The position numbers and the translations under genes are program-made. A stretch of DNA of 64,000 nt. It comes from Sapria himalayana. Lineage: Eukaryota > Streptophyta > Magnoliopsida > Malpighiales > Rafflesiaceae. The notes under the pieces are model-generated. The model did not search any database, was not told the DNA's origin, and worked only from the letters and a program-made list of their open reading frames with translations. Positions 7,401 through 53,179 of the stretch are shown in pieces. How positions within the stretch are numbered: position 1 is the stretch's first letter; the number at the start of each line of letters is the position of its first letter. The stretch spans positions 7,911,571 through 7,975,570 of the forward strand of contig JAREIK010000801.1 in assembly GCA_029783825.1 (NCBI GenBank), written 5' to 3'.

Positions 7401-8707
7401 TGAAATTTGCATTTTGGTATATCAAACATAAAATAATTTAAAAACATTTTAAAAATTTAAATAAAAATACACTAAAATAGAAAATTATTAATTTTTAGTA
7501 CACTTAAATGCTTAAAACCAATTTTTCCCATTCACTTTTAAAAAGATAAATCTAAAATAGCAATTTTTGAATTTGAAAACAACTTTTCTTATGGAAATCA
7601 GTTTGCAAAACAACCCTTCAGACACAGGTTTTGATTTTTAAAATTTTTTTTTTATTTTGAAAACCACTTTTTATATGGAAAGTAGTTTTTATTTGGAAGA
7701 ATTATGTTTTGGTATACTAACTATAAAATAATTGAGAAAAAAATAACTTAAATTTTAATATTTAAAAAATGGTGCATCAAACTCTAAACTAATTGATTTT
7801 TAGTGCACTCAATTCTAAATACCAAAATACTTTCGCCCCTCAGCTCGTCGCTCACCCCTTTCCCCTAGCCCCTCTACCCTTACTAGAATTCCATCGAGGT
7901 GCTTTAGGGAGCTCGTGGAGCTCCATCGAGGGGCTCCTCGAGCTCGTGCATGGAGATTGATTGAGCTCCGTGGACAAGCTCCAGCTTCCCAGGAGCTCCA
8001 TGGATAAGCTCCATGGAGTTCCACGAGCTCCCTGGAGTTCCTCGATGGAACTCATGAAACTTCATTGAGCTTGACGATGAAGCTCGTTGAGCTCCAGCAA
8101 GCTCAATGGAAAATCTCGATAGAGCTCCCAAGAGCTCGTGAATCTCCAGCAAGCTCCAAGATGAAGTTTGAGTTCGAGGAGCTCCAAGGAGGAGCTCAAA
8201 AGTGCTTCAAGGAGAAGCTTGATAGAGCACCAAGGAGGAGCTTGATAAAGCTCCAATAGGGGGCGAAGGGATAAAATATTTTGGTATTATAATAATTGAT
8301 TGTACCAAAAATTAATTAGTTAAGAGTTTGGTGCACTATTTTTTAAATAAAAAAAGTTAGATTCATTTTTTCCAATTATTTTACAAGTAGTACACCAAAA
8401 CATAATTCTCCCTTTTTATTTTGAATGGAAAGTAAATTTTATTTTTTTGGAAATGACTTTTAGAATCTAAAAGTGATTTCTATTTTTAAACAACTTTCTA
8501 ATCAAAAAATACTTTTCAAATTCCAAAAATAGTTTTTGAATTCAAAAACTATTGTTTTTGTTTATTAAATTTTTTTTTAAAAAAAAAGTGATGTGACAAA
8601 ATTAGTGTTATTCATTTGTATGCACCAAAAATTAATAATTTTCAATTTTTAAAAATTTTTAAATAAAAATTACTTTATATTTTGTAATCTAAAACACAAA
8701 TCCCCCT
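7401..8707. mobile_element. Outer foldback (Mutator-like) element, split by a second foldback element
   Basis: The terminal stretches are inverted copies of each other. The left end (7401 on) reads 'tgaaatttgcattttggtat' and further in 'gaaaattattaatttttagt'. The reverse complement of the right end (8707 back) reads 'aggggga tttgtgttttaga' and 'gaaaattattaatttttggt'. The 9-bp sequence ATTTTCTCA flanks both ends (7392-7400 and 8708-8716) as a target-site duplication. Long TIRs with a 9-bp duplication are the Mutator/MULE signature. No transposase is encoded, so it is non-autonomous. Without the inner element (7695-8412 plus one duplicated 9-mer) it would be about 580 bp. Confidence 0.75.
7695..8412. 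mobile_element. GAGCTC-core foldback element, copy 1 (Mutator-like, non-autonomous)
   Basis: This element has imperfect TIRs of about 150 bp. The left end begins 'ggaagaattatgttttggt' and the reverse complement of the right end begins 'gggagaattatgttttggt'. Inner TIR landmarks are 'gtgcaccaaactct' and 'aatttttggt'. The 9-bp target duplication TTTTTATTT is at 7686-7694 and 8413-8421. The core (about 7840-8270) is a degenerate array of GAGCTC separated by 6-12 bp spacers. All the overlapping small open frames on both strands in the core (7815-8259) are low-complexity E/L/H/S-rich readings of this array, not genes. Confidence 0.85.
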
Positions 8708-35584: not shown

Positions 35585-35691
35585 ATTAGCTCAACTCTAG
35601 AGCTTTAGTTCATCCCTAGATCTTTAGCTCATCCCTAGAGCTTTAGCTCATCCCTAGAGCTTTAGCTCATCCCTAGAGCTTTAGCTCATCA
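35585..35691. repeat. 19-bp minisatellite
   Basis: The unit agctttagctcatccctag is repeated about 5.5 times without gaps. Positions 35639-35657 and 35658-35676 are exact. The neighbouring units (35601-35619, 35620-35638) differ by one base each, and partial units flank both sides. Near-identity of the units contrasts with the decayed surroundings and implies recent expansion or homogenisation. Confidence 0.95.
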
Positions 35692-40259: not shown

Positions 40260-40860
40260 CAAGATATATGAGAACTTGTAGATACTAGTTACACAGAACA
40301 CTAAGACCTCTCTTCTCTAGAAGAAAAAGAGGTGTTTTTGGAACGTGAGCTTAGAAAAGCTAATGCAGAGCATTACTCTTCATCCAACATTATGTTAGTA
40401 ATGCCATTTCCCCCAATTGTTAGGTTGTACATAAGCTAAACAAACTTGGGACCTTATGTTAGTAATTGAGGTGCTCTTCTTCATTCATTAAAAAAAGATT
40501 TTGAAAATTTGAGGATGAGTAACTCAGATTCTCTCACTGAGTTCTCCACTCAGTTTTTGGGGGTGGTTAACCAGTTGAAAATCTATGGTGAAACTATTAC
40601 AGAAACTCTATTAGTTGAAAAATTACTTATATGTATGCATGACAAATTCGACCCTAAATTTGCAATGATTGAGGAAACAAAGGAGTTGTCAGAATTAAAT
40701 AACATCAAGTCCTCGGCTCTCTAAAATCCTATGAAAGATGATTACTCAAGAGAGTAAAGTCCACTATCGAATCGGCCATGCAATCCATATTGGAGACACC
40801 AAGTACAAAAGTAAAAAGTAAAGTAATAGAAACTCAAAGCAAAAAAAGGATGGTCGGGTA
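40260..40860 (+). pseudogene. copia gag fragment, left of the MITE
   Basis: The open frame 40509-40724 encodes 'SDSLTEFSTQFLGVVNQLKIYGE', then 'LLVEKLLICMHDKFDPKFAMIEETKELSEL'. This is the UBN2-type gag of copia elements (typically 'FSR...VNQL...GE...D..VVEKIL.SL...F......IEE.KDL'). The N-terminal third is degraded and lacks a start. The gene is then cut by the MITE at 40862. Gag resumes after 41316 and runs to a zinc knuckle. Confidence 0.8.
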
Positions 40861-40861
40861 T

Positions 40862-41307
40862 TAGAGGTGTCAACCGGGCCGGGCCGGCCCGGCACGAGGC
40901 ACGGCACTGTTGGGCCGTGCCTGGGCCAGCGCGACATGGAAATTTTTCGTGCCCGGGCTTGTGCCGAGGCCAACCGGGCCTCATGTCGTGCCTGGCACGG
41001 TACCGTTCCCAAATCAAATTTTTTTTTAAAATTAGGGTTACGGCAGCGCTGAAACCCTAATTTTTTTTAAATTAGGGTTTCGGGTGCGCTGAAATCCTAT
41101 TTTTTTTAAATTAGGGTTTTGGGTGCGCAAAAACCCTAATTTTTTTTAATTTAGGGTTCGGCCCAATCGGGCGAACACGGTAGATCATGTTGCGGGCCCG
41201 TGTTAGGCTGAACCCCACTAAAACTATGTCTGGCCCAGCACGAAAGCACTATCGAGCCTGAAAAAAATGTGCCGGGCCGACCCGGCACGTCCCGTTTGAC
41301 ACCTCTA
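40862..41307. mobile_element. hAT MITE, 446 bp, inserted in copia gag
   Basis: The 12-bp terminal inverted repeats TAGAGGTGTCAA are perfect, and the subterminal CGGGCCGGGC-type sequence is very GC-rich. The 8-bp target duplication is TCGGGTAT (40854-40861) versus CCGGGTAT (41308-41315), one mismatch. Inside, the block 'aaaccctaattttttttaaattagggtt' is repeated three times (about 41030-41155), itself an inverted motif. It has no transposase; open frames on both strands are shadows. Its ends match the dead hAT element at 17.0-18.9 kb, which suggests that family mobilised it. Confidence 0.9.
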
Positions 41308-41315
41308 CCGGGTAT

Positions 41316-41585
41316 GTCAATTTAAATAAGTAAAGAGGTAAAACCGTAAAAGCATTAATAATGCATAATCTGTATCTTCAAATACACCTCAACCGAGGGG
41401 TTCACACATCCCTTACAATATATGTAAGAGAACTAACCACATTGAGAATGAGTGTTAGTTTAGAACAAAGAATCAATGTCTAAACTGTAAAAAGTTTGGG
41501 CATCTATCTAAAGATTGTAGGGAAAAGCACATTCAATATGTTAATTGTGTAGAGAAAACATTCTCTATAGAGCACATATTCTATG
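41316..41585 (+). pseudogene. copia gag C-terminus with zinc knuckle
   Basis: The blocks continue gag after the MITE. A CCHC knuckle 'CLNCKKFGHLSKDCR' is read at about 41478-41523 with all four zinc ligands (C-X2-C-X4-H-X4-C) intact. It is followed by 'EKHIQYVNCVEK', the usual lead-in to protease. In-frame stops upstream show the element is dead. Confidence 0.85.
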
Positions 41586-42850
41586 TGGCAGAAACCAAAT
41601 ATAATCCCTCTTCAAATATATGGTTTGTGGATAATGATTGCTCAAATCACATGTGTAGAAATCATGATATATTTGTAAATTTACAACCTTTAGTAGATTC
41701 ACAAGTCAAGTTAGGAAATGGTGAACTTGTCCAAGCAAAAGCAAAGGGAAAAGTCACTGTCTCCACCCCCACATGAGATAAAATCATAAAAGATGTACTT
41801 CTAGTTCCAGCATTGGACCAGAATCTCTTTAGTGTGGGACAATTAATGGAGAGTGGATATGATTTGGTGTTCAAAGATAATTTATGTAGCATATACAAAC
41901 AAGAGTTAAAACCCCCTCTTTGGATAGTAAAGATGTCTAGTGGAAGGAGTTTCCCTCTGACCCTTGATCAGAAATAGAATATAGCTTTAAGGATGAATGT
42001 TGAACATGAGGTAATTCTGTGGCATAGAAGATTAGGCCACCTAAATTACACAAATCTAAAATTACTTTCACAGAACCAACTTATGAGTGGCCTACCATCT
42101 AATCTAAGCATTCCCTCATCGGTATGTGAGGAATGTGTCATGGTTAAGCAATCCAAGCAGAGCTTTCCCAAAAATACTGCCTGGAGAGCATCCCAACCTT
42201 TTGAACTAGTCATGCTAATATATGTGGACCTATGACAATTCAGTCTCTAGTAAACAAAAGATATTTATTGTTGTTTGTTGTTGATTGCATTCGGATGATG
42301 TGGATTTACTTCTAGACATGCACGGCTGATGCCTTTGAATATTTCAAGAAGTTTGTATACCTAACTAAAAGAAAATTTGGTCTAAGTATAAAAACACTCA
42401 TAACAGATAGAGGTGGTGAGTTTCTCTCATAGAAATTTAACAACTTCTGTGATCAAAGAGGAATTCAGAGATACCTTACTACCTCATACTCTCCACAACT
42501 GGTTCGTATTATAGAGAGGAGAAATAGAAGTGTAGTTAAAATGGCCCGAACACTACTAAGTGAGAAACATATGTTTAAACACTATTGGGCAGAAACTGTT
42601 AACACAGCAGTCTATTTACTCACTAGATACTCAACTAGAGTATTAAAAGATCTCAATCCATTACAGGCCTGGAGTGGGAGAAACCCGAATGAACAACACT
42701 TAAAAATATTTGGGAGTGTATGTTACTCTTCAATACCAAAACCTACTAGATCTAAGTTAGACTCCAAGAATCTAAAATATATTCTAGTTGGATACAATGT
42801 GCAATTCAAGGGTTATAAACTATATTCACCAAAAAAAAAACATTTTTGGT
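41585..42850 (+). pseudogene. copia protease-integrase remnant
   Basis: The protease region is read at 41585-41776: 'WFVDNDCSNHM' in place of the normal 'W..DSGCSNHM', so the active-site Asp-Ser-Gly is lost. The integrase zinc domain is at 41993-42235 ('WHRRLGHLN', 'CEECVMVKQSKQSF', HHCC ligands present). A catalytic core follows with 'TDRGGEFLS' and 'GIQRYLTTSYSPQ'. The frame 42541-42852 ('MARTLLSEKHMFKHYWAETVNTAVYLLTR', 'IFGSVCY', 'KYILVGY') is the end of integrase. Frameshifts or stops fall at about 41775, 42233, 42430 and 42850. Confidence 0.9.
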
Positions 42851-42934
42851 GAGCAGAGATGTAATCATTGATGAGAATGCTAAATGAGAAAGTAATATGC
42901 AAAATTCTAATGTGCAAAATATCAGTATAAAAGG

Positions 42935-43378
42935 ATGGAATCTAGATTTTGTTAGCGGATGATAATATTGAAAGCAAGCTATATCTTGGTCATCCAAGAA
43001 ATAATCTATAGTTGTACTTTCTAATACTGAAGCAGAATATGTTTCAGCTTCAGTAGCAACAACACATGCATTATGGATGCAAAAGTTACTGAATGATTTG
43101 GATGAACCTATAAAAGAATTGACTAGTTTATTATGTGACAATTAGTCTACCATATACATAGTTAATGATGGTGTGATGCATAGCAGGATAAAACACATAG
43201 GGCTTAAATATCGTTTTATTAGAGATGCAATTGAAACTAATGAAATCAAGTTGTTTTTTTTTTTTTGCAAATCAGAAGAGCAATTAGCTGATATTTTCAC
43301 CAAATCACTACCAAAAGAAAAATTAATATACCTTAAAGAAAAGCTAGGACTCGTGCCGAGTATATCAAATGGGGGAGA
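42935..43378 (+). pseudogene. copia RNase H C-terminal part; reverse transcriptase deleted
   Basis: Translation jumps from the post-integrase linker (ends near 42920) directly to RNase H: 'SWSSKK.SIVVLSNTEAEYVSASVATTHALWMQKLL'. 'LLCDN.STIYIVNDGVMHSRIKHIGLKYRFIRDAIETNEIKLFF' and 'EEQLADIFTKSLPKEKL' follow. The catalytic E (TEAEY) and D (CDN) are readable, but a stop follows CDN. The whole RT with its YVDD box is absent, so about 1 kb or more was removed near 42920-42940. Confidence 0.9.
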
Positions 43379-43379
43379 T
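43371..43379 (+). other. Polypurine tract
   Basis: GGGGGAGAT directly precedes the 3' LTR start (TGTTGG at 43380), as expected for plus-strand DNA priming of a copia element. Confidence 0.9.
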
Positions 43380-43755
43380 TGTTGGTAATGGACATGTATT
43401 TTGCTGCACTTGGCCTCACAATAATAGGTTGAATTACAAGTTTACCTTTCTGATTTATCATTAAATGAACATGTCTGATATGCGGTATTTATTAAAGACA
43501 CTTTTGACTATTACCATTTTTTGATATATGATATATAAACTCTGTTTTCTTTTCATTCTTTAATTGAATGTCATTTTTTGATATTTGCGGTTACTATGCT
43601 AGGATCTCTCATCTTTGGCAATTTCTTTTTCTTCTTTGTGATTTCTTCATTTTCTTCTTTGTGATTTCTTCATTTTCTTCTTCGCGATTTCTTATCTTCT
43701 TTTCTAGTATTTTGTAATCCTTATTTTATCAAGGAATCTTAACCAAAATGCAACA
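43380..43755 (+). repeat. 3' LTR of the copia element
   Basis: This LTR is homologous to 39577-39906 but about 46 bp longer. The motif 'ttctttgtgatttcttcatttt' is present in an extra tandem copy (about 43625-43690). The LTRs also differ by numerous substitutions, so the insertion is not recent. Confidence 0.9.
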
Positions 43756-43908
43756 AGTACAAATTAATTTCTAAATTAATCTTTTCTTTTATATATATAT
43801 ATATATATAAACACAAGCACTTCCACACACAGATAGTTATAGTTATAGATATGATTACATTTACTTAATTATGTGTGTGCTCAATTTATCTATTTACTTT
43901 TATCTTAT
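43756..43908. other. Spacer with (TA)n tract
   Basis: This short AT-rich stretch contains (TA)8-9 near 43793-43808 and 'tatagttatagttatagatat'. No gene is seen. Confidence 0.6.
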
Positions 43909-43918
43909 TTAATTTAAG

Positions 43919-44627
43919 TGAAATTATATTTTAGTACACTCCTCAAAAAATATTTGATTAAAAGTAACTAAAATTTTTATATTTATAAAAAATTACACTA
44001 AACTCTTAATAAATTAAAATTTGACACGCTCATTTATATTAATCCTAATTAACGATTAACAATTAAAACTCACCTCGCCCGATGCCCCCTTATCTCACCC
44101 TCTCTATCGAGCTCATGGAGCACGTCGTCAAGCACCACAAGCTCCTGGAGCTAATCATCGAGCTCCAGGAGCTACTGAAGCTTGACCATGATCTCGTGGT
44201 ACAGCACTACGAGCTCCATAAGTTACCGAAGCTTGACCATGAGCTCGTCGTCCAGCATTATAGGCTCCAAAACCTTCTAGAGCTTGTCGTCCATCACCAC
44301 GAGCTCTTGGGGCTCGATGGAAAGGATGAGGCGAGAGGGCGAGTGGCTTCAGGCATCGGGCGAGGAGTGAGGGGCGTCGGGAGAGGAGTGAGGGGCGTCG
44401 GGCGAGGGGCATTGGGTGAGGGGCGTCAGGCTAGGTGCGTTCGGCGAGGTTCGTCCGGCGAGGTGCGTCCGGCGAGGGGCGAGGAGAGGATAGTTTTTGA
44501 AGTATAGTGATTGAGTGCATAAAATTTAATTTTATTAAGAGTTTGGTGTAATTTTTTATAAATATCACAACTTGGGTTATATTTTTTTCAAATATTTTTT
44601 GGGGAGTACATCAAACAAAATTCATCC
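43919..44627. mobile_element. GAGCTC-core foldback element, copy 2, 3' of the response regulator gene
   Basis: TIRs of about 110 bp pair 'gtgaaattatattttagtac...acaccaaactcttaata' with the reverse complement of the right end ('ggatgaattttgtttgatgt...caccaaactcttaata'). The 10-bp target duplication TTTAATTTAA is at 43909-43918 and 44628-44637. The core is a GAGCTC array (44105-44320) followed by repeats of 'ggcgaggggcgtcgg' type (44330-44480). The 141-codon frame 44082-44507 starts with a Leu-rich helix-like repeat (ELHKL..LDHELVVQHY) and ends with a Gly/Arg-rich repeat (GRGVRGVGRGVRG). It is open because the repeats avoid stops; I see no evidence that it is a gene. Confidence 0.85.
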
Positions 44628-44688
44628 TTTAATTTAACCCATGACAATCCGATCATTAATTATCTAGCCCCATTGAAGACTCATACGG

Positions 44689-44741
44689 CACACGTGCACA
44701 TGCGCCCGCGCGCACACGGACACACATGCGCGCACACACAA
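44689..44741. repeat. Alternating purine-pyrimidine CA/CG tract
   Basis: The stretch 'cacacgtgcacatgcgcccg...cgcgcacacaca' is nearly continuous purine-pyrimidine alternation, including CGCGCG cores. Such tracts can adopt Z-DNA under negative supercoiling. It lies about 215 bp beyond the stop codon of the response regulator gene, and may have expanded from a simple (CA)n. Confidence 0.7.
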
Positions 44742-44931
44742 ATGGTTATATTAGTTATAGTTAAGGTTACAGTTATTTAGCGAATACGAATCCACAAAAG
44801 TTAAATGTCAAATCATGAGATCATGATAATTTAACAATAACAGTAGATATAAGAGCATATGCAGTTCGATCAAACTTAAGAGCAAGCAATTATAAAATAT
44901 CAAATATCCAGCTCTAATTAATAAGGTAAAC

Positions 44932-44937
44932 TTTATT
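44932..44937 (-). promoter_or_regulatory. Poly(A) signal of the response regulator gene
   Basis: On the minus strand this reads AATAAA, about 20 nt after the TAA stop codon. That is a conventional near-upstream element for polyadenylation in plants. Confidence 0.6.
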
Positions 44938-44955
44938 CTAGTGGTTTAAACTTCA

Positions 44956-45406
44956 TTATACTCGTGGGAAGAACATGGAGATGTTATTAACGTCAAGTGG
45001 CTTTGAAACACAATGATCAAGACCTGCTCCCGAGAATTCAATGGACTGTAAATTCCATGAAGTGACACCTATGATGGTGCTCTTGATGCCCATTTCTCGC
45101 AGTTCAAGCGCCACCTATAATCCAACTCACAACGAATCAATACCCAATGACAGTCACAACACACAGACACACAAATGTACATGCAGTCATGGACTGATAC
45201 ACAATCACCTGAACTCCGTTCATGTCTAACATTTCGATCTCTAGAAGAATAAGATCAAAAGAAGCCCCTCGGCGATGAAGGTAGATCGCTTCTTTTCCAT
45301 TATCTACTACGTGTACTTCAAATCCATGTTTGCTCATCAAATCTCTTTGAGATAATCTCGTCGAATCGGTGTCGGCCACTATAAGCACTGAGAATGGTTT
45401 CTCCAT
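44956..45406 (-). CDS. Type-C-like two-component response regulator (receiver-only, two exons, 118 aa)
   Basis: Exon 1 is 45209-45406 (66 codons); a 94-bp intron (GT at 45208-45207, AG at 45116-45115) separates it from exon 2, 44956-45114 (52 codons plus TAA), phase 0. The product is a bare receiver domain: 'PFSVLIVADTDS' (strand 1 and acidic pocket), 'SKHGFEVHVVDNGKEAI', 'FDLILLEIEMLDMNGVQ', 'IIGVTS' and 'HCVSKPL'. The closest family I know is the plant receiver-only regulators such as ARR22/ARR24, which take phosphate from phosphotransfer proteins in cytokinin-type phosphorelays. The conserved Lys (SKP) and Thr/Ser are kept. The phospho-acceptor Asp of 'LILMD' is Glu here (LILLE), and the first acidic residue of 'VDDD' is Ala. 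The frame is intact over both exons, with TATA and AATAAA at sensible distances. It is a likely real, possibly phosphorylation-independent regulator, or a very recent pseudogene. Confidence 0.85.
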
Positions 45407-45465
45407 GTTTCATGTGATTCCTTATTCAAAATGCATCGTTCTTTATTCAAGCTCGGAAGTTTGCA

Positions 45466-45472
45466 TTTTATA
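45466..45472 (-). promoter_or_regulatory. TATA box of the response regulator gene
   Basis: On the minus strand GGTTATAAAATGC places TATAAAA about 60 bp upstream of the ATG at 45406. This predicts transcription start about 30 bp upstream of the ATG. Foldback-element DNA begins only about 330 bp further upstream (45800), so the unique promoter region is under 400 bp. Confidence 0.6.
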
Positions 45473-46350
45473 ACCAGTTTCTAGCACAGTCAGACGTTGG
45501 CAGACACTCGCACACACTGTAAGCAGGGTCGCAGTATTGTTTTCCACACGGGAACAGGGGTAGCAAGGCGTCAATTTTTAGATCAACCCTTGTTATCCAC
45601 TGAAGTGGCATTTGTATTGCTTCTAGCAAATAATTAAATCATTCGGGCATTAAATTTGATACTTGAAGTTAAACCAATACACAAAATTATGTTTGTCGTT
45701 ATCTGTGAAAATATTTTAATGGTAAATTATATTTTGGTACACTTTAAATCATATAATTTAGTTTTTAAATAAAAATCGAGTTTTTTTTTAAATAAAAAAG
45801 GGGGAATTATGGTTTGGGGTGCTCCACCAAAAATATTTAAGAATATGAAACTAGTATTTTAAAGTTTCCAAAAAAGTCATCAAAATCAAAAATAATTAAA
45901 ATTTAGGACACACTATTACGTTTATACTAAAATGAAATGTACTTCATTAAATCACAAAAACCTTCCCCCTCTTTCATCGGCCCTCATCTCGCCCTAACCT
46001 CGCCCTCTCCCAATCTGACCTCTCCTCGCGCTCTCCCATCGGCCCCCCCACCGGCTCACCCTCTCTCTTCTCTTGGAGCTCAAAGACGAGCTACTGGAGC
46101 TCGAAGACGAGCTACTGGAGCTCGTCGTCGAGCTCCAAGAGCTCATCATCAAGCTCGATGGAGCTCGTCATCGAGCTCCAGGATCTCTTCGTCAAGCTCG
46201 ATGGAGCTAGTCATCAAGCTCCATGAGCTCTTCGTCGAGCTCAATGGAGCTCGACGGACGAGTCTTCAAGCTCCATCGAGCTCGACGACATGTTCCTAGA
46301 GCTCAAAACGAGCAATTCAAGCTCCTTCGAGCTCGTCGTCAAGCTCCAAG

Positions 46351-46512
46351 AATTAGAAAAAATGGAAGTATAACAAAAACAAGCAAGTTTATTCTTTTTG
46401 CATAATAATGAATTTATAGGAAGCTAGCTTTGACAATGTAAAAATTAAAATCAAAAAAGTCTTGATCCAGCTGGGATATACAGCTATTACGGTTGGAAAA
46501 TATTTCTTAATA
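46351..46512 (-). repeat. 3' LTR of the nested copia element
   Basis: On the minus strand this LTR runs from 'TATTAAGAAATATTTTCC' to '...TTCTAATT'. The usual TG...CA ends appear as TA...(T/A)A. It is very similar to 51612-51771, with about ten substitutions and small indels. Confidence 0.9.
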
Positions 46513-46528
46513 CTCCCCCTCAAGTTGG
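46513..46528 (-). other. Polypurine tract of the nested copia element
   Basis: On the minus strand this reads CCAACTTGAGGGGGAG, immediately before the 3' LTR. Confidence 0.85.
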
Positions 46529-46567
46529 AAAGTGAATGTCATGGAGTCCCAACTTGCTGCATAAACT

Positions 46568-47271
46568 CTAAAAGTGATTTTTTTCTAAGTCCTTTGTAAA
46601 TATATAAGCCAACTGTGAGTTTGAAGGAACAAAGGAATGATCAATCATTCCTGTTTGTATTTTTTCTCGTACTATATGACAGTCTATTTTAATGTGCTTC
46701 GTACGTTCATGAAAGACAAGATTCGCCGTAATATGTAAAGCTGCTTGATTATCGCAAAATAATAGTATTGGAGTTGTTTGAGAGACCTTTAAATCATGTA
46801 GTATATAGCGTAACCATGTTAGCTCTAAACATGTATTAGTCATGGCTCGATACTCGACTTTAGCTGATGATCTAGAGACATTGGTTGTTTCTTGGACTTA
46901 CATGATATGAGAGAATTTCCAAGAAAGATGCAATATCTTGTAACTGATCTTCTTGTAGTGCGACAACCTCCACAATCCAAATCACAAAAAGATTTCAAAT
47001 TTAAACTGTTATTAGAAGGAATTAATAATCCCTGACCTGGGGTACCTTTGATGTATTTTAGGATTCGAATGGCAGAATTCCAATGTGGTATTCTAGGTTC
47101 TTGCATGAATCGGCTCAATGTGTGAATTGAGTAGACTATGTCGGGCCTTGTCACTGTCAGATAAATCAACCTTCCAATTAATCTTCTATACTTTATTGGA
47201 TCATTTAGCAATGCTCCATTAGTGGAAGTGAACTTCAAATTTTGCTCCATTGGTAAATTATTGGGATGCAT
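46568..47271 (-). pseudogene. copia RNase H region (nested element)
   Basis: The frame 46840-47271 carries 'KYRRLIGRLIYLTVTRPDIVYSIHTLSRFMQEP', 'AIRILKYIKGTPGQGLL', 'DLDCGGCRTTRRSVTRYCIFLG' and 'SCKSKKQ'. Frame 46568-46843 adds 'CLELTWLRYILHDLKVSQTTPILLFCDNQAALHI', 'ERTKHIKIDCHIVREKI' and 'QLAYIFTK'. This is standard copia RNase H. The join at about 46845 is a frameshift, and 'SAEAEYRA' is disturbed there. Asp of CDNQ is kept. Confidence 0.95.
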
Positions 47272-48135
47272 TCCTAAGAGTCATGTATCTTGTAAAATAT
47301 CCAACGCATACTTTCTTTGTGACATAAAAATTCCCTTTTTTGAACGAGAAAATTCAATACCTAGAAAGTACTTCAAGTCTCCAAGATCTTTAATATGGAA
47401 GTGTTTAAGAAGGAATTCTTTGAGGTGTTCCATTTCATGTAGATTATTTCTTGTGAGGAGTATGTCATCAACATATATGAGAATTACTGTAAAAGAATTA
47501 CCTTGAGCCTTGGTGAAAAGTGAATAATCAGTCTTTGATTGTTAATAACCAGCCTTTTGAATAATATCTGAGAATGTGGAAAACCAGTTTCTTGATGCTT
47601 ATTTAAGTCCATAAAAAGACTTGTTGAGCCGACATACAATGTTCTCCCCATGTTGGTGAAGACCATGTGGAGGTTCCATTTATACAACATCATGTAAATC
47701 ACCATGGAGGAAGGCATTTTGAGCATCCAATTGGTGGATGTACCAATGGCGTGTAGAAGCAATAGTAAGAGGACATCGAAGTGTTGTAAGTTTAGCTGTT
47801 GGTGAAAATGTTTCATGATACTAAATGGCTACAATTTGATTGTATTTCTTAGCAATGAGGCGAGCCTTGTGGCACTCAATGGTGCCATCAGATCAATATT
47901 TTATTTTGTAAACCCATTTACAATCGATCGGTTTATGGCCGATAGTCAGAGGGACTAGGCTATATGTGTTGTTGAATTGTAATGATGTTAATTCTATATG
48001 CATAGCTTGTCACCAATGTGGATCAAGGATAGCTTGAGAATAAGTTTTGGGCTCGATGTGTTTTGTGATGGTAGCTAAAAATATAGAATGAGAGGAATAT
48101 AAATGTGAGTAGGAAAGAAAATGTGAGAGTGGATA
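47272..48135 (-). pseudogene. copia reverse transcriptase (nested element)
   Basis: The catalytic 'IYVDDILLT' box is intact, encoded at 47464-47475 for YVDD. 'LKEFLLKHFHIKDLGDLKYFLGIEFSRSKKGIFMSQRKYALDIL' follows. The upstream RT fingers are broken across several frames (the frame 47484-47816 is off the RT frame and is a partial shadow). A stop (CTT GGG region near 47285) separates RT from RNase H. RT copies element RNA into DNA, but this copy cannot be translated. Confidence 0.9.
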
Positions 48136-49302
48136 TCAAGTACTTGTTTCAGAATTTGATGTTGAGGTAGATTGATTAGCTTGAGAGGATATCAGAAAGT
48201 CTTTATGCCATGTTGGAGGTCGCTTGGGTCGTGTTGACTGTCTTGGAGGGGGAATAGGTTCAGAAGGAATATCTAACGTGTCTGAAAGTGTTGGTGTAGT
48301 TTGCATATGTGTGGGAGATATCAGTTCATGTGTATTTGTTATTTCTATTTGCTCATATTGGTGAGAATGAGTGCTAGAAGGAACTGGTGGTATGATAGAC
48401 TGAGGTGGATGAAAAAGAAAAAATGGTTTCATGGAACTTGACATCACAGCTGATAAAAAATTTCTTAGTTTCCATGTCGTATAGTTTGTAACTTTGTATC
48501 CTTTTTGCCTAGTTGGATATCCAATAAAGATACATTTTTTGACACGTGATTCGAATTTATGAATTGGGTGTATAATGGTGGCGTAGCATAGACAACCAAA
48601 AACTTTTAAGTGATCAAGAGGGGGTGGATAATGATATAAAATTTCAAAAGGTGTTTTGTTTGAAAGCAATGGAGATTGTAACCGGTTAATGAGATAAATA
48701 GTAGTTAAAACACACTCTTCCCAAAAACGCAAAGATAAATGGGATTGAAAAAATAGTGATCGTGCTATAGTGAGAATGTGACGATGCTTCCTTTCGACAA
48801 CTCCATTTTGTTGTAGAGTATAAACACATGTGTGTTGATAAAAATATTTTTCATAGACATGAATTCAAGATTATTGTCTACTCTGACTGCTTTGACATAG
48901 ACATGAAATTGAGTATAAACAAAATCAATGAAAGATTTCAAAATATTTTGATCTCAGAATTGTGTTGCATAAGAAATATCCACGTGCATCTTGTAAAGTC
49001 ATCTACGATGGTAGGAAAGAATCGTTTCCCTGAGTGTGTGGGGACTTTGTGAGGACCCCAGATATCACAATATAATAAATCAAATAGAGCATGAGTTGAT
49101 ATGGAACTTAGTGGGAAAGAAAGTCATGGTTGTTTTGCCATAGGACAAATAGTACATTTATTGTCATAAAAATATTGTTTGAAGATAACAATGAAGAAGC
49201 TAATTTAAGACAAAATGATGATGGATGTCCATGACGCAAATGCCATAGATTGGAAGGGTGTGAAACTTGATGACAGATTGATGTTTTTTGCAATGGAGGC
49301 AT
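48136..49302 (-). pseudogene. copia integrase (nested element)
   Basis: The zinc-domain piece is at 49108-49302 ('LWHLRHGHPS...', 'CQ/FVLWQNNH'). The core near 48865 includes 'VRVDNNLEF', the counterpart of 'IRSDNG.EF'. The C-terminal frame 48136-48732 (198 codons) has 'FWEECVLTTIYLINRLQSPLLSNKTPFEILY', 'HLKVFGCLCYA', 'KCIFIGYPTRQKGYK' and a Pro-rich linker 'SEPIPPPRQSTRPKRPPTW' leading to RT. Stops and shifts divide it. The last 198 codons remain a clean open frame. Confidence 0.95.
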
Positions 49303-49536
49303 CTAATAGAGACCACTATGTTGTTTAATCGAGCCAATCATCTTCCCCGTAGCCAAGTCCTGTAGGACACAAAAGGTGGGAAAAAAATGACACAACATTT
49401 TAAAGCAGGTGGTAATTTTACTTACAGAAATTAGATTTAAACGAAAACTAGGAACACATAGAACATCATCTAAGGTGATATCAGAATTGAGAGATACGGT
49501 GCCAGTTGAAGTGATTGGGGTTGTAAATCCAGTTGG

Positions 49537-49761
49537 TTAATTAAAGATAGGTATTAATGAATTAGAAGTGATATGATTGGTGGCACCACTATCCAAAATC
49601 CAAGGCTTAGTGAATACAGAGTTAATTGAAGTATTTGAAAAAAGAGACAGACCTGTTGCATTTGCATAGGAGTTTAAATTATGGTTTGTACTTGTTAATG
49701 ATAGGGCATGAGAAAGTTGTTGAAGTTGATCTGTGGAGAATCCTTGCAAGATATTGACCAT
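49537..49761 (-). pseudogene. copia protease (nested element)
   Basis: The open frame ends with 'FTKPWILDSGATNHITSNS', the aspartic protease active-site block with D-S-G intact. The Asn/Ser-rich lead-in is the usual gag-protease linker. A stop or shift follows near 49537, before integrase. Confidence 0.95.
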
Positions 49762-49924
49762 GTCAAAAGTTTGGCTTGTTTGGTTATGTGTGAATTGAGT
49801 GGATTCTGTTGAATTAGCAGTAGGGAAAGAATTTCTTCGAAATCCTCATTGTGATTGACCTTGTCGGTTGCTTGTGATATTGGGTGTCCATGTGTTATTT
49901 TTGTATTTGCATCTATCATCAGTA

Positions 49925-50733
49925 TGTCCTTATTTATCACAGTATTTGCAATGAAACTTTAGAGTACGATAATTTTCAATGGTGTGACCTTATCTTTTAC
50001 AATGTTCACAAAGCTTGCCTTTTGATTTTGAGTAGTTTGAATTATTCTGAATTGTAGTAGCAATAGGAAAATTTTCAGTTGTTTTAGATGTCACTTATCA
50101 TTGCATTTCTTCTTGAATGATGAGGGAATAAGCTTGACGAACATTAGGCAATTGAGTTATCATGAGAATGTTTCTACGAACAATATTATAAGTATCATTA
50201 AGGCCCATGAGAAATTGCATCATCTGATCTTCTTCTCTTTGTTCGATGTGTACCTTCATTTGGTTGCAGGCGGGAATAGGTCGATATGTATCTAACTCAT
50301 CCCAAATATTTTTGAGTTTTATGAAATAGGCTGAGATTGTCATCGTGCTTTGTGAGAGAGAGGCTAGTAATTTTTGAATTTAATAAATTGCTGGTGCATT
50401 TTTTTGTGAAAATTGATCTTTGAAATCATCGCATACTTGGCGTGTCATTTTGGCATAAATAACCCCTTTGGCTAGATCAAGTTCCACTGAGTGGGTAAAC
50501 CATGATAAAATAATACTGTTGTATTGATTCCAAATGGCATATTCTATTGGATGCTCTATTTCAGAAGGTGGTTTAATTGACCCATCAATAAAGCCAATTT
50601 TGTTTTTGACTGTAAGGGCATGAATCATTGATTTACTCCATGATTGATAATTGGAGCCATTTAGTTTCGTTGGAACGAGTAAGTGATTGGGTTGATCTGA
50701 ATGATAGATGAAAAATAGATTGGAAGAATCCAT
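49925..50733 (-). pseudogene. copia gag with two zinc knuckles (nested element)
   Basis: Gag starts at 50733 with 'HSDQPNHLLVPTKLNGSNYQSWSKSM' and 'AKNKIGFIDG'-type sequence, open to 50380. After a stop and shift it continues in 50098-50343 ('LKNIWDELDTYRPIPAC', 'EEDQMMQFLMGLNDTYN'). Around 49925-50015 there are two CCHC knuckles, 'CEHCKR.GHTIENY' (last Cys lost) and 'CKYCDK.GHTDDRC' (intact), each with an internal stop. This is the nucleocapsid region of the retrotransposon. Confidence 0.95.
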
Positions 50734-51599
50734 AGTTGAAGAAGCTTTGATGGAGATTGGTATTATTGATATTTGTTGTGGGTTTTTTTTAACTGAAGTT
50801 CGACCGGATCATGCCCTAGGTTTTTTATTTTTTTTGCACAAGCCTCCTCATTTGTGAGCAGAGGCGTGAAATTTCTTCATGGCGCTTCAAAATTTCCTAC
50901 AGATGCGAGACTAGGCGTGAAGAACCGAGAAGAGACAAGATGAGCTTTTGTCGATATCAACGTGCGATCACCTGCAGATGTTGTCTAATATGCAAGAGTT
51001 GTTGGATTCACAGCAAGCTCATCTCGAGGATTGTTTCTGTATGAACTGCTTCGGTTGATGCGTCTGGTTGCGTCGTATGGATGGATCTTGAGGAAAGCCT
51101 TTCGGTTTCTTATACTTCGTGATCTCCTACTTCAAATTTATGGATTGTTTCTGCAGATGTAAGAATTTCTATATTATTCCTAGCAGTGTGAAATCAACCC
51201 ACTTTGTCAGTGAAGGATGTTGTTGATGGCTTTGGCCAACTTGGTGGCCCCTTCTGAGTTCCAGCAATTTCACAACTCCTTTAAGGACTCCAAAATGAGG
51301 ATCAATTATTTGGAGCTGGATCGCTGATATCCCGTGATGATTATAGAGATGTCGTGATAGAGCATTCTTGTAGTTTTGAAAAATTTTGAGATCTTGGATT
51401 TGGCTTGGCAACTTGAAGATTATGTAGAAAAAAGAAGGTAAGAGCAAAGAGTTGTATAAAAAAAATCAGTAGTTCCCTCAATACTTGAAAATCACAAAGA
51501 AGGAAGCAAGCCAAACAAAATGGCATTATTTAAATATACAAACTTCATTAGCAGCATCATTAATAGTTGTGAGTATAACACCTCAAAAAAAACAATCTT
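50734..51599 (-). other. Long leader of the nested copia element
   Basis: About 0.87 kb lies between the primer site and the gag start, unusually long for a small-LTR copia element. It is less AT-rich than its surroundings and contains an open frame at 51169-51447 (92 codons, 'LPSQIQDLKIFQNYKNALSRHLYNHHG...') with no recognised domain. It may be an untranslated leader or a captured piece of unrelated DNA. Confidence 0.55.
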
Positions 51600-51611
51600 C
51601 TTCTAATACCA
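51600..51611 (-). other. Primer-binding site of the nested copia element
   Basis: On the minus strand TGGTATTAGAAG follows the 5' LTR directly, a diverged match to the tRNA-iMet complement TGGTATCAGAGC. Confidence 0.85.
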
Positions 51612-51771
51612 TATTAGAAAAAATGGAAGTATAACAAAAGCAAGCAAGTTTATTCCTTTGCGTAACAATGAATTATAGGAAGCTAACTTTGACAATGTAG
51701 AAATCAAAATCAAAAAAGTCTTGATCCAGCTGGGATATACAACTATTACAGTTGGAAAATATTTCTTAATA
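51612..51771 (-). repeat. 5' LTR of the nested copia element
   Basis: This LTR is the partner of 46351-46512. On the minus strand it begins TATTAAGAAATATTTTCC and ends TTTTTTCTAATA. Confidence 0.9.
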
Positions 51772-52501
51772 CCAAAATCTCTTCGTCGAGCTAGATGGAG
51801 CTCATCATCGAGCTTCAGGAGTTCAAAGACGAGCCCTTCAGAGCTCCATCGAGCTCGTTTTAGAGCTCCAAGAGCTCTTCTTCGAGCTCGATGGAGCTCG
51901 ACAAAGAGCTCCCGGAGCTCATCAACGAGCTAAAGGAGTTTGACGGGGAAGATTTCGAGCTCCATCGATCTCGAAGACAAACTCCTGGAGCTCGACGATG
52001 AGCTCCATTGAGCTTTAGGAGATGGGAGCTGGCCGAGGGCGAGGCGAGGACCAATGGGAGAGAGCATAGGGCATGGCGAGGGCCAAAAGGAGAGGGCCGA
52101 TGTTAGAGGACGAGGCGAGGGCCGATGGGAGAGGGCAAATGTTAGAGGGCGAGGTGAGGGCCGATAGAATAGTGGGAAGGTTTTATTTAAAATTAATTAG
52201 TTGGACTAAATGTTAGTTTATTGATTTAATGAAGGATATTTTAGTATAAACGTAACAGAGCACCTCAAATTCCAATTTTTTTTGATTTTGATAATTTTTT
52301 TTCAAAATTTAAAATATTATTTTCAAATTCTTAAATATTTCTAAAGAATCACCCCAAAACATAATTCCCCCAAATAAAAAACTAAACTTTACCTGTAAAC
52401 AACATGTCGGCAGTTTTTAAATTTACACACTAACACAAACATATAATAATTAAAAAAATTGATTTTTTTAATAAAAAAATGAATTTTTTAATAAAATAAA
52501 T

Positions 52502-53160
52502 GATTTTTTTAAAAAACATGCTTGGTACACTCCACACAAAATAATTTAAAAAAAACTTATCTATTAATATTTGAAAAAAATACACCAAATTATTAACAAA
52601 TTAAACTTTTGTACATTCAAACATATAAATCATAATATACCCGTAATTAATTTTTACACCCTCCTCTCCACTCGCACCTCTCCTGTAAAACTCACCCCTC
52701 ACCCTCTCCTCTTGCCCTTTCCCCTCACTCTCTCTCCTTGCTCTCTCCATCGAGGTGGAGGAACTCATGGAGCTCCTTGATAGAGCTCCATGGAACTCCT
52801 CAGTTGAGTTAGATGGGGCTTAGTGGAGCTCCACGATCTTTTTGGAGCTCGTGGAGCTCCACAAAGAAGGTTAAGGAGCTCCAGCAAGCTCCTTCCCCTC
52901 AATGGAGAGGGTAAGAAGAAAGGATGAGGGGGGATTGGGCGAGGCGCAAGTTAAAGGGAGAATGTGAGGAGTGTGTTTTATAGGAGAGGGACAAGTGGAG
53001 AGGATAAAGTAAAAATCAATTAAGGGTATATTAGGATTTATATATTTTAGCGCATCAAATTTTAATTTGTTAATAATTTAGTATACTATTTTTCAAATAT
53101 TAATAGATGAGTTCATTTTTTAATTATTTTGTGAAGAGTGCATCAAAACTTGATTCCACC
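52502..53160. mobile_element. GAGCTC-core foldback element, copy 4 (boundaries approximate)
   Basis: TIRs of about 150 bp pair 'tggtacactccacacaaaataattta...ctattaatatttgaaaaa' on the left with the reverse complement of the right ('gatgcactcttcacaaaataatta...ctattaatatttgaaaaa'). Both continue to 'taatataccc.taattaatttttac'. The core (52650-52960) has the CACCCTCTCC arm, GAGCTC units and a GGAGAGGGTAAG arm. Candidate duplicated flanks are TAAAATAAAT (52492-52501) and TAAAATAATT (53161-53170). The extreme left end has drifted, so the start is uncertain by about 15 bp. It lies only about 120 bp beyond copy 3. Confidence 0.75.
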
Positions 53161-53179
53161 TAAAATAATTATATTTTTG

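Follow-up and report, generated by a model that had tools for sequence, protein, structure and literature searches.

Four foldback elements with a GAGCTC-array core, most likely Mutator-like, in a window of Sapria himalayana DNA

What kind of transposon carries at its centre an array of one palindromic six-base word, and how did such an array arise? The question is raised by four inverted-repeat elements, here E1 to E4, in a 64,000-nt stretch of DNA from Sapria himalayana (contig JAREIK010000801.1); the whole stretch is called the window, and all coordinates follow its numbering. We consider it probable, at roughly 75%, that these are four old copies of one non-autonomous foldback family, which a transposase of Mutator-like elements (MULEs) most likely mobilises in trans, and that their GAGCTC core is a minisatellite grown by slippage. 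The type of transposon is already known from published descriptions; for the make-up of the core no match was found in the collections and literature searched.

The window is AT-rich, with 28.6% GC outside 7690-8420 and 43900-53170, and it looks like plant nuclear DNA: it contains copia elements and, at 45137-45409, a response-regulator domain. Four foldback elements had been proposed in an initial annotation, and all of them are present where they had been placed, see Table 1. The proposed coordinates hold for E1 and E3; E2 starts at 43917 or 43918 and not at 43919, and E4 starts at about 52508. Three members had been credited with clear target duplications of 9-10 bp, and these are indeed exact: 9 bp in E1, 10 bp in E3, and in E2 either 9 bp (start at 43917) or 10 bp (start at 43918). 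E4 has no convincing duplication, its best candidate being 8 bp long with one mismatch and shifted ends. Among 3000 random pairs of places with fixed ends, an exact abutting repeat of at least 9 bp was found in 0 and one of 8 bp in a single pair. A target duplication of the length seen in MULEs, 8-10 and mostly 9 bp, is therefore carried by three of the four elements and is unreadable in E4.

Table 1. Positions of the four elements and their parts in the window.
Feature	Positions	Strand	Remarks
E1, whole element	7695-8412	.	718 bp long; flanked by the target duplication TTTTTATTT
E1, left terminal arm	7695-7834	+	inner border not exact; matches to TTTGGTGCACT at +14, -77, +105
E1, core	7881-8262	.	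borders drawn by eye; 25 motifs like GAGCTC, 11 of them exact
E1, right terminal arm	8263-8412	-	inner border approximate
E2, whole element	43917-44627	.	target duplication TTTAATTTA (9) or TTTAATTTAA (10, start 43918)
E2, core	44101-44325	.	12 motifs (5 exact), one reading frame; within a 141-aa open reading frame (ORF), 44082-44507
E2, G-rich right arm	44326-44490	.	14/21/28-bp tandem units; counterpart is a short C-rich left stretch, 44070-44112
E3, whole element with nested copia	45800-52371	.	target duplication AAATAAAAAA
E3, left C-rich second arm	45961-46066	.	partner about 52020-52170
E3, core, left part	46067-46351	.	23 motifs, 13 of them exact; most spacings 12/9/12/10
E3, copia-type retrotransposon	46352-51772	-	long terminal repeats (LTRs) at 46352-46513 and at 51613-51772; gag and pol in broken frames: Retrotran_gag_3, RVT_2, SH3_retrovirus
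E3, core, right part	51773-52022	.	19 motifs (12 exact); direct register with left part
E4, whole element	52508-53160	.	5' end worn, start approximate; no clear target duplication
E4, core	52743-52905	.	9 motifs (6 exact)

Common terminal inverted repeats (TIRs) of roughly 100-150 bp had also been claimed, and the eight terminal arms do fit one profile of 192 positions. They are AT-rich, share their termini and can be aligned over about 150 bp; this length agrees with the long TIRs of MULEs, commonly >100 bp. A search with this profile recovers all eight arms at E 6e-31 or better, a circular result as the arms built the profile; in five block-shuffled windows the best match has an E of 1.1. 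The consensus end that had been claimed for all members is found at six of the eight element ends: a search of the window for the 26-base end with at most 8 mismatches gives seven sites, these six and a stray one, and does not match the 3' end of E2 or the 5' end of E4. The element ends may resemble a repeat common in legumes; a literature search with the letter string gave no paper, and the likeness is not used here.

The stray site, at 45720-45745 just outside E3, is a lone terminus-like sequence with 7 mismatches to the 26-base end, and no partner of it was found. Two further stretches resemble worn arms, one at 55425-55302 on the minus strand (E 6e-9) and one at 7411-7521 on the plus strand (E 6e-4), both with a strong AT bias and a large composition-bias correction. 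They are possibly solo remains of further copies.

Within an element the two arms are 83, 73, 81 and 81% identical in E1, E2, E3 and E4, and arms of different elements are 64-75% identical. As judged from their sequences, the four elements appear to be old copies of separate, diverged subfamilies. The arms have a subterminal motif, TTTGGTGCACT, which was picked after inspection of them. With at most 3 mismatches it matches the eight arms 21 times, where letter shuffles give 1.7 (largest 8). E1, E2 and E4 together have six arms with 18 expected places, of which 17 hold a copy like it: a forward copy at 13-14, a reversed one at 72-77 and another forward one at 100-105; the third copy is missing from the left arm of E2 at this threshold. 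We regard the motif as a putative transposase binding site. According to PMC4079207, repeats within the ends of the foldback-like element Galileo carry additional sites to which transposase binds.

E3 is far longer than the other elements, but it is not a 6.5-kb relative of them: the extra length is a nested copia element, and without it E3 measures 1152 bp as cut. The LTR pair of this retrotransposon differs by 9 mismatches and two one-base gaps over about 162 columns. LTRs usually have TG...CA ends; as aligned, the pair in E3 runs ATTAG...TTAATAC, without them.

The core is the unusual part of these elements. The window has 52 copies of GAGCTC against 4.44 +- 2.02 expected (100 shuffles, largest 11), and 47 of the copies lie in the 1306 bp of the four cores, where no other six-base palindrome is found more than 3 times. 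Allowing at most one mismatch gives 88 motifs. The GAGCTC array that had been described is thus present, but its spacers are not 6-12 bp long as had been stated: of 83 start-to-start steps 62 measure 9, 10, 12 or 13 bp, corresponding to alternating spacers of 3-4 or 6-7 bp, a step of 11 never occurs, and the other 21 are 17-39 bp. Neighbouring steps are short-long in 39 cases, short-short in 4 and long-long in 0. Tandem arrays of period 21 and period 43 were also found.

The core had further been said to read alike on both strands, and this is true even with the spacers included. For 28 of the 37 short spacers the set also contains the reverse complement, against a shuffled mean of 10.5 (largest 22 in 1000). 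Among the 25 long ones, 11 fit NTCNTC and 9 fit its reverse complement GANGAN, against 1.7 and 2.4 after shuffling; the pattern was picked after inspection, and tandem units are not independent. The two core parts of E3, however, are direct and not inverted relatives. Aligned directly they score 190 (permuted mean 135.9, reached by 0 of 500), and aligned inverted 145 (permuted mean 135.3, reached by 124 of 500), which rules out the core as part of inverted arms in this element: the E3 core is one direct tandem array. The same proposal is unsupported for E1, E2 and E4, where the inverted score is reached by 481, 48 and 101 of 500 and the direct score by 451, 175 and 369. In 18 core comparisons of unit order between elements the best z is 2.4. 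The unit order common to them is at most weak, and most of the turnover of the arrays therefore seems to have been independent.

Inside the AT-rich ends a second pair of inverted arms had been proposed. There are GC-rich stretches inside the elements, with C prevailing in the left ones and G in the right ones. As inverted arms they are clear in E3 and E4, where 0 of 500 letter shuffles reach the score in either element, weaker in E2 (3 of 500) and not supported in E1 (242 of 500). Composite inverted repeats with internal tandem repeats are a trait of foldback elements. The evidence on it is mixed here: second GC-rich arms are present in E2-E4 and not in E1, but the main array of E3 is direct and lies outside the inverted arms.

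Folding agrees with a foldback structure. The predicted RNA fold energy of the whole element, compared with 10 block shuffles each, is -333 against -174 for E1, -290 against -202 for E2, -600 against -334 for E3 and -319 against -161 for E4. Predicted pairs cross the midpoint in 135 of 265 cases in E1, 158 of 245 in E2, 313 of 439 in E3 without its copia and 230 of 253 in E4. By this prediction most of the element pairs with itself as one hairpin, E1 by only half, and in E4 the hairpin passes through the core so that the element folds nearly whole. Much of the E1 and E2 cores is predicted to form local hairpins, which agrees with the idea that the core can pair with itself in many registers. 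A transcript of an element would be a long hairpin by prediction, and is a likely candidate source of small RNAs.

These properties suggest how the family may have formed. A transposase of the MULE type would act in trans on the elements. The core would have grown inside the element, via slippage or repair synthesis, from a unit of about 21-23 bp with two GAGCTC motifs. Strand switching at a motif would flip the spacer between two motifs and leave the motif itself unchanged, because GAGCTC is its own reverse complement; this would explain the constant motif, the spacers in both orientations and the weakly common unit order. The local flips inside a direct tandem array would fit strand switching at palindromes, with the palindrome concealing the flip and the spacer revealing it. 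As to the earlier assignment to Mutator-like elements, arm length and target length fit and are the two properties that speak for membership, which is most likely; the protein frames of the window give no such support.

A number of observations weigh against this interpretation. Among the 53 stop-to-stop frames of at least 80 aa in the window (Pfam, E 0.01), 0 match a transposase, so that an autonomous copy is not among the four elements. Ten of the frames match any domain: nine are copia-type, two of these only below the Pfam curated cut-off, and one is Response_reg; inside the elements the only frames with a domain match are those of the nested copia. The sample is four copies, and no empty site was seen. 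Since arms of different elements are up to 75% alike, the arm pair of E2, at 73%, is no closer than some of these. E3 retains TTTGGTGCACT poorly, with 3 weak matches, and in E1 barely half of the predicted pairs cross the midpoint. The spacer and motif counts overstate significance, since both NTCNTC and TTTGGTGCACT were chosen post hoc and tandem copies depend on one another. Finally, four of the 18 core comparisons are reached by at most 7 of 200 permutations (E1-E3 left by 4, E2-E4 by 4, E3 left-E4 inverted by 7 and E3 right-E4 by 3), and some common unit order may therefore survive.

The best alternative is that the core is functional as DNA: its palindromes would be sites for a dimeric protein, a transposase or a host factor, or for a nucleosome, a pitch of about 10.5 bp would hold them on the same side of the helix, and selection would have preserved them in every subfamily. 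The strongest period of the motif positions is indeed 10.55 bp in E1, 10.6 and 10.55 bp in the left and right parts of E3, 10.45 bp in E4 and 10.1 bp in E2. Further, the motif and the pitch are common to the elements even though the unit order is at most weakly so, and Muta1, an active MULE, likewise has short fixed spacers in its TIR repeats (PMC5225508). However, compared with permuted spacings, E3 alone shows strong phasing (p 0.0095 and 0.0035, for two parts of one array), with p 0.08 in E1, 0.10 in E2 and 0.29 in E4. When spacings are jittered by at most 2 bp, the values are 0.06 in E1, 0.01 in E2, 0.0015 and 0 of 2000 in E3 and 0.16 in E4. In addition, a 21-bp unit with two motifs yields a pitch of 10.5 bp without any selection, and we find a functional core unlikely. 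A combined form can be imagined, in which a selected, helically phased and direction-neutral array offers dimer sites about one turn apart to a transposase or host protein, and the palindrome itself also drives array growth through strand switching, which flips the spacers and leaves motif and pitch as they are; this we find rather unlikely too.

Another superfamily could have moved the elements. Target duplications near 8-10 bp are also made by hAT, P and Merlin, and the lack of a transposase in the 53 frames would suit such an origin. Foldback structures arise in several superfamilies (PMC4079207). Against this, target duplications of 9-10 bp together with arms >100 bp are the usual MULE pattern: in mosquitoes, 14 of 14 MULE families have duplications of 8-9 bp and 12 of 14 have TIRs >100 bp (PMC5225508). 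We therefore judge an origin outside Mutator improbable.

Could the core have been coding? GAG CTC reads Glu-Leu, and where the motifs are spaced by 9 or 12 bp a leucine would recur every 3-4 residues, as in a coiled coil. All 12 motifs of the E2 core are in one frame, and the ORF there has an ELxxELx pattern with leucines at coiled-coil spacing. In genome contigs the spaced four-motif pattern has 5 loci, all bacterial (element ends were sought there only via the terminal pattern), and the Glu-Leu frame is the longest stop-free frame at 2 of the 5. Decayed coding sequence is nevertheless very improbable: the frame is open in E2 only, where the ORF lacks a Pfam match and none of 248 candidates is a homologue at E<=0.001, all six frames contain one or more stops in the cores of E1, E3 and E4, where spacings of 10 and 13 break the frame, spacers are present in both orientations, and long frames are cheap in GC-rich bacteria.

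Short repeats are known from foldback MULEs, but a core of one palindrome with near-helical pitch and two-way spacers could be a readable record of array growth. Strand switching at palindromes predicts which parts of an array flip and which stay. Should the pitch be selected, a protein that recognises the array would be indicated.

Some other repeats in the window deserve mention. A second copia-type region with broken frames lies at 40470-43388 on the plus strand and has gag, Pol_BBD, gag_pre-integrs and SH3 domains; at 41021-41158 it includes a 40-bp tandem repeat with AAACCCTAA-like units. A 19-bp tandem repeat at 35586-35690, of 5.5 copies, has the unit TTAGCTCATCCCTAGAGCT, in which AGCT is present twice. 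Further inverted-repeat pairs, at 112-181/738-807, 545-631/1105-1191 and 53951-54032/54485-54566, may be other small transposons.

Relatives were also sought outside the window. The terminal pattern has 0 matches in collections of viral and genome contigs, the core pattern has 0 in the viral ones and the E3 core has no plasmid match, but these collections hold no plants as such and the negatives therefore say little. A GAGCTC-array transposon is not named in the literature searched, which took in neither most subscription papers nor any plant repeat library.

How does the family compare with known systems? The initial annotation held that no plant element of this design had been described. This is too broad, as foldback MULEs built of short motifs are published (Muta1, PMC5225508; Tm1, PMC3169594), but in the searches made the GAGCTC core had no counterpart. 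Going by the available parts of the descriptions, four features appear to set the family apart in the literature searched: the palindromic GAGCTC unit, its position in the core, the alternating pitch of 9/10 and 12/13 bp, and the flipped spacers.

Muta1 of Aedes aegypti, an active MULE called a type 2 Foldback element, resembles the present family in its long TIRs (145 bp), target duplications of 8-9 bp, an array of a 12-bp motif with 3-4 bp spacers and many non-autonomous derivatives (PMC5225508). It differs in that the TIR houses the repeat, which is longer than the 6-bp palindrome filling the core here; nor was a transposase found here in window frames of at least 80 aa. Tm1 of root-knot nematodes, classed as Mutator/Foldback, shares composite TIRs, tandem units of 13-15 bp, target duplications of mostly 9 bp and members like miniature inverted-repeat transposable elements (MITEs), but it has asymmetric end motifs and another repeat, and its array is within the TIR (PMC3169594).

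Tetris of Drosophila virilis is likewise a foldback element with internal tandem repeats, target duplications of 8-10 bp and no autonomous partner found, and differs in its 220-bp repeats in the TIR (PMC4079207). The SIRC elements of Arabidopsis have short repeats, some of them palindromic, with diverse spacers and a suggested origin from MITE interiors; unlike the arrays here, they have 2-8 copies of 10-29 bp and TIRs that are suggested to be lost (PMC10342631). For MULEs with duplicated TIRs slippage has been proposed, but this was not settled by the authors' trees (PMC3310237).

Among plants, MuTAnT of Medicago truncatula is also a foldback MULE with modular TIRs. It differs in its TA-repeat targets and in size, 90% being 200-300 bp, and the available part of its description mentions no GC-rich core array (PMC4486113). 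FARE of Arabidopsis and Tnr8 of rice are plant foldback elements as well, as cited in PMC3169594 and PMC4486113, and FARE is classed as a MULE according to PMC4486113.

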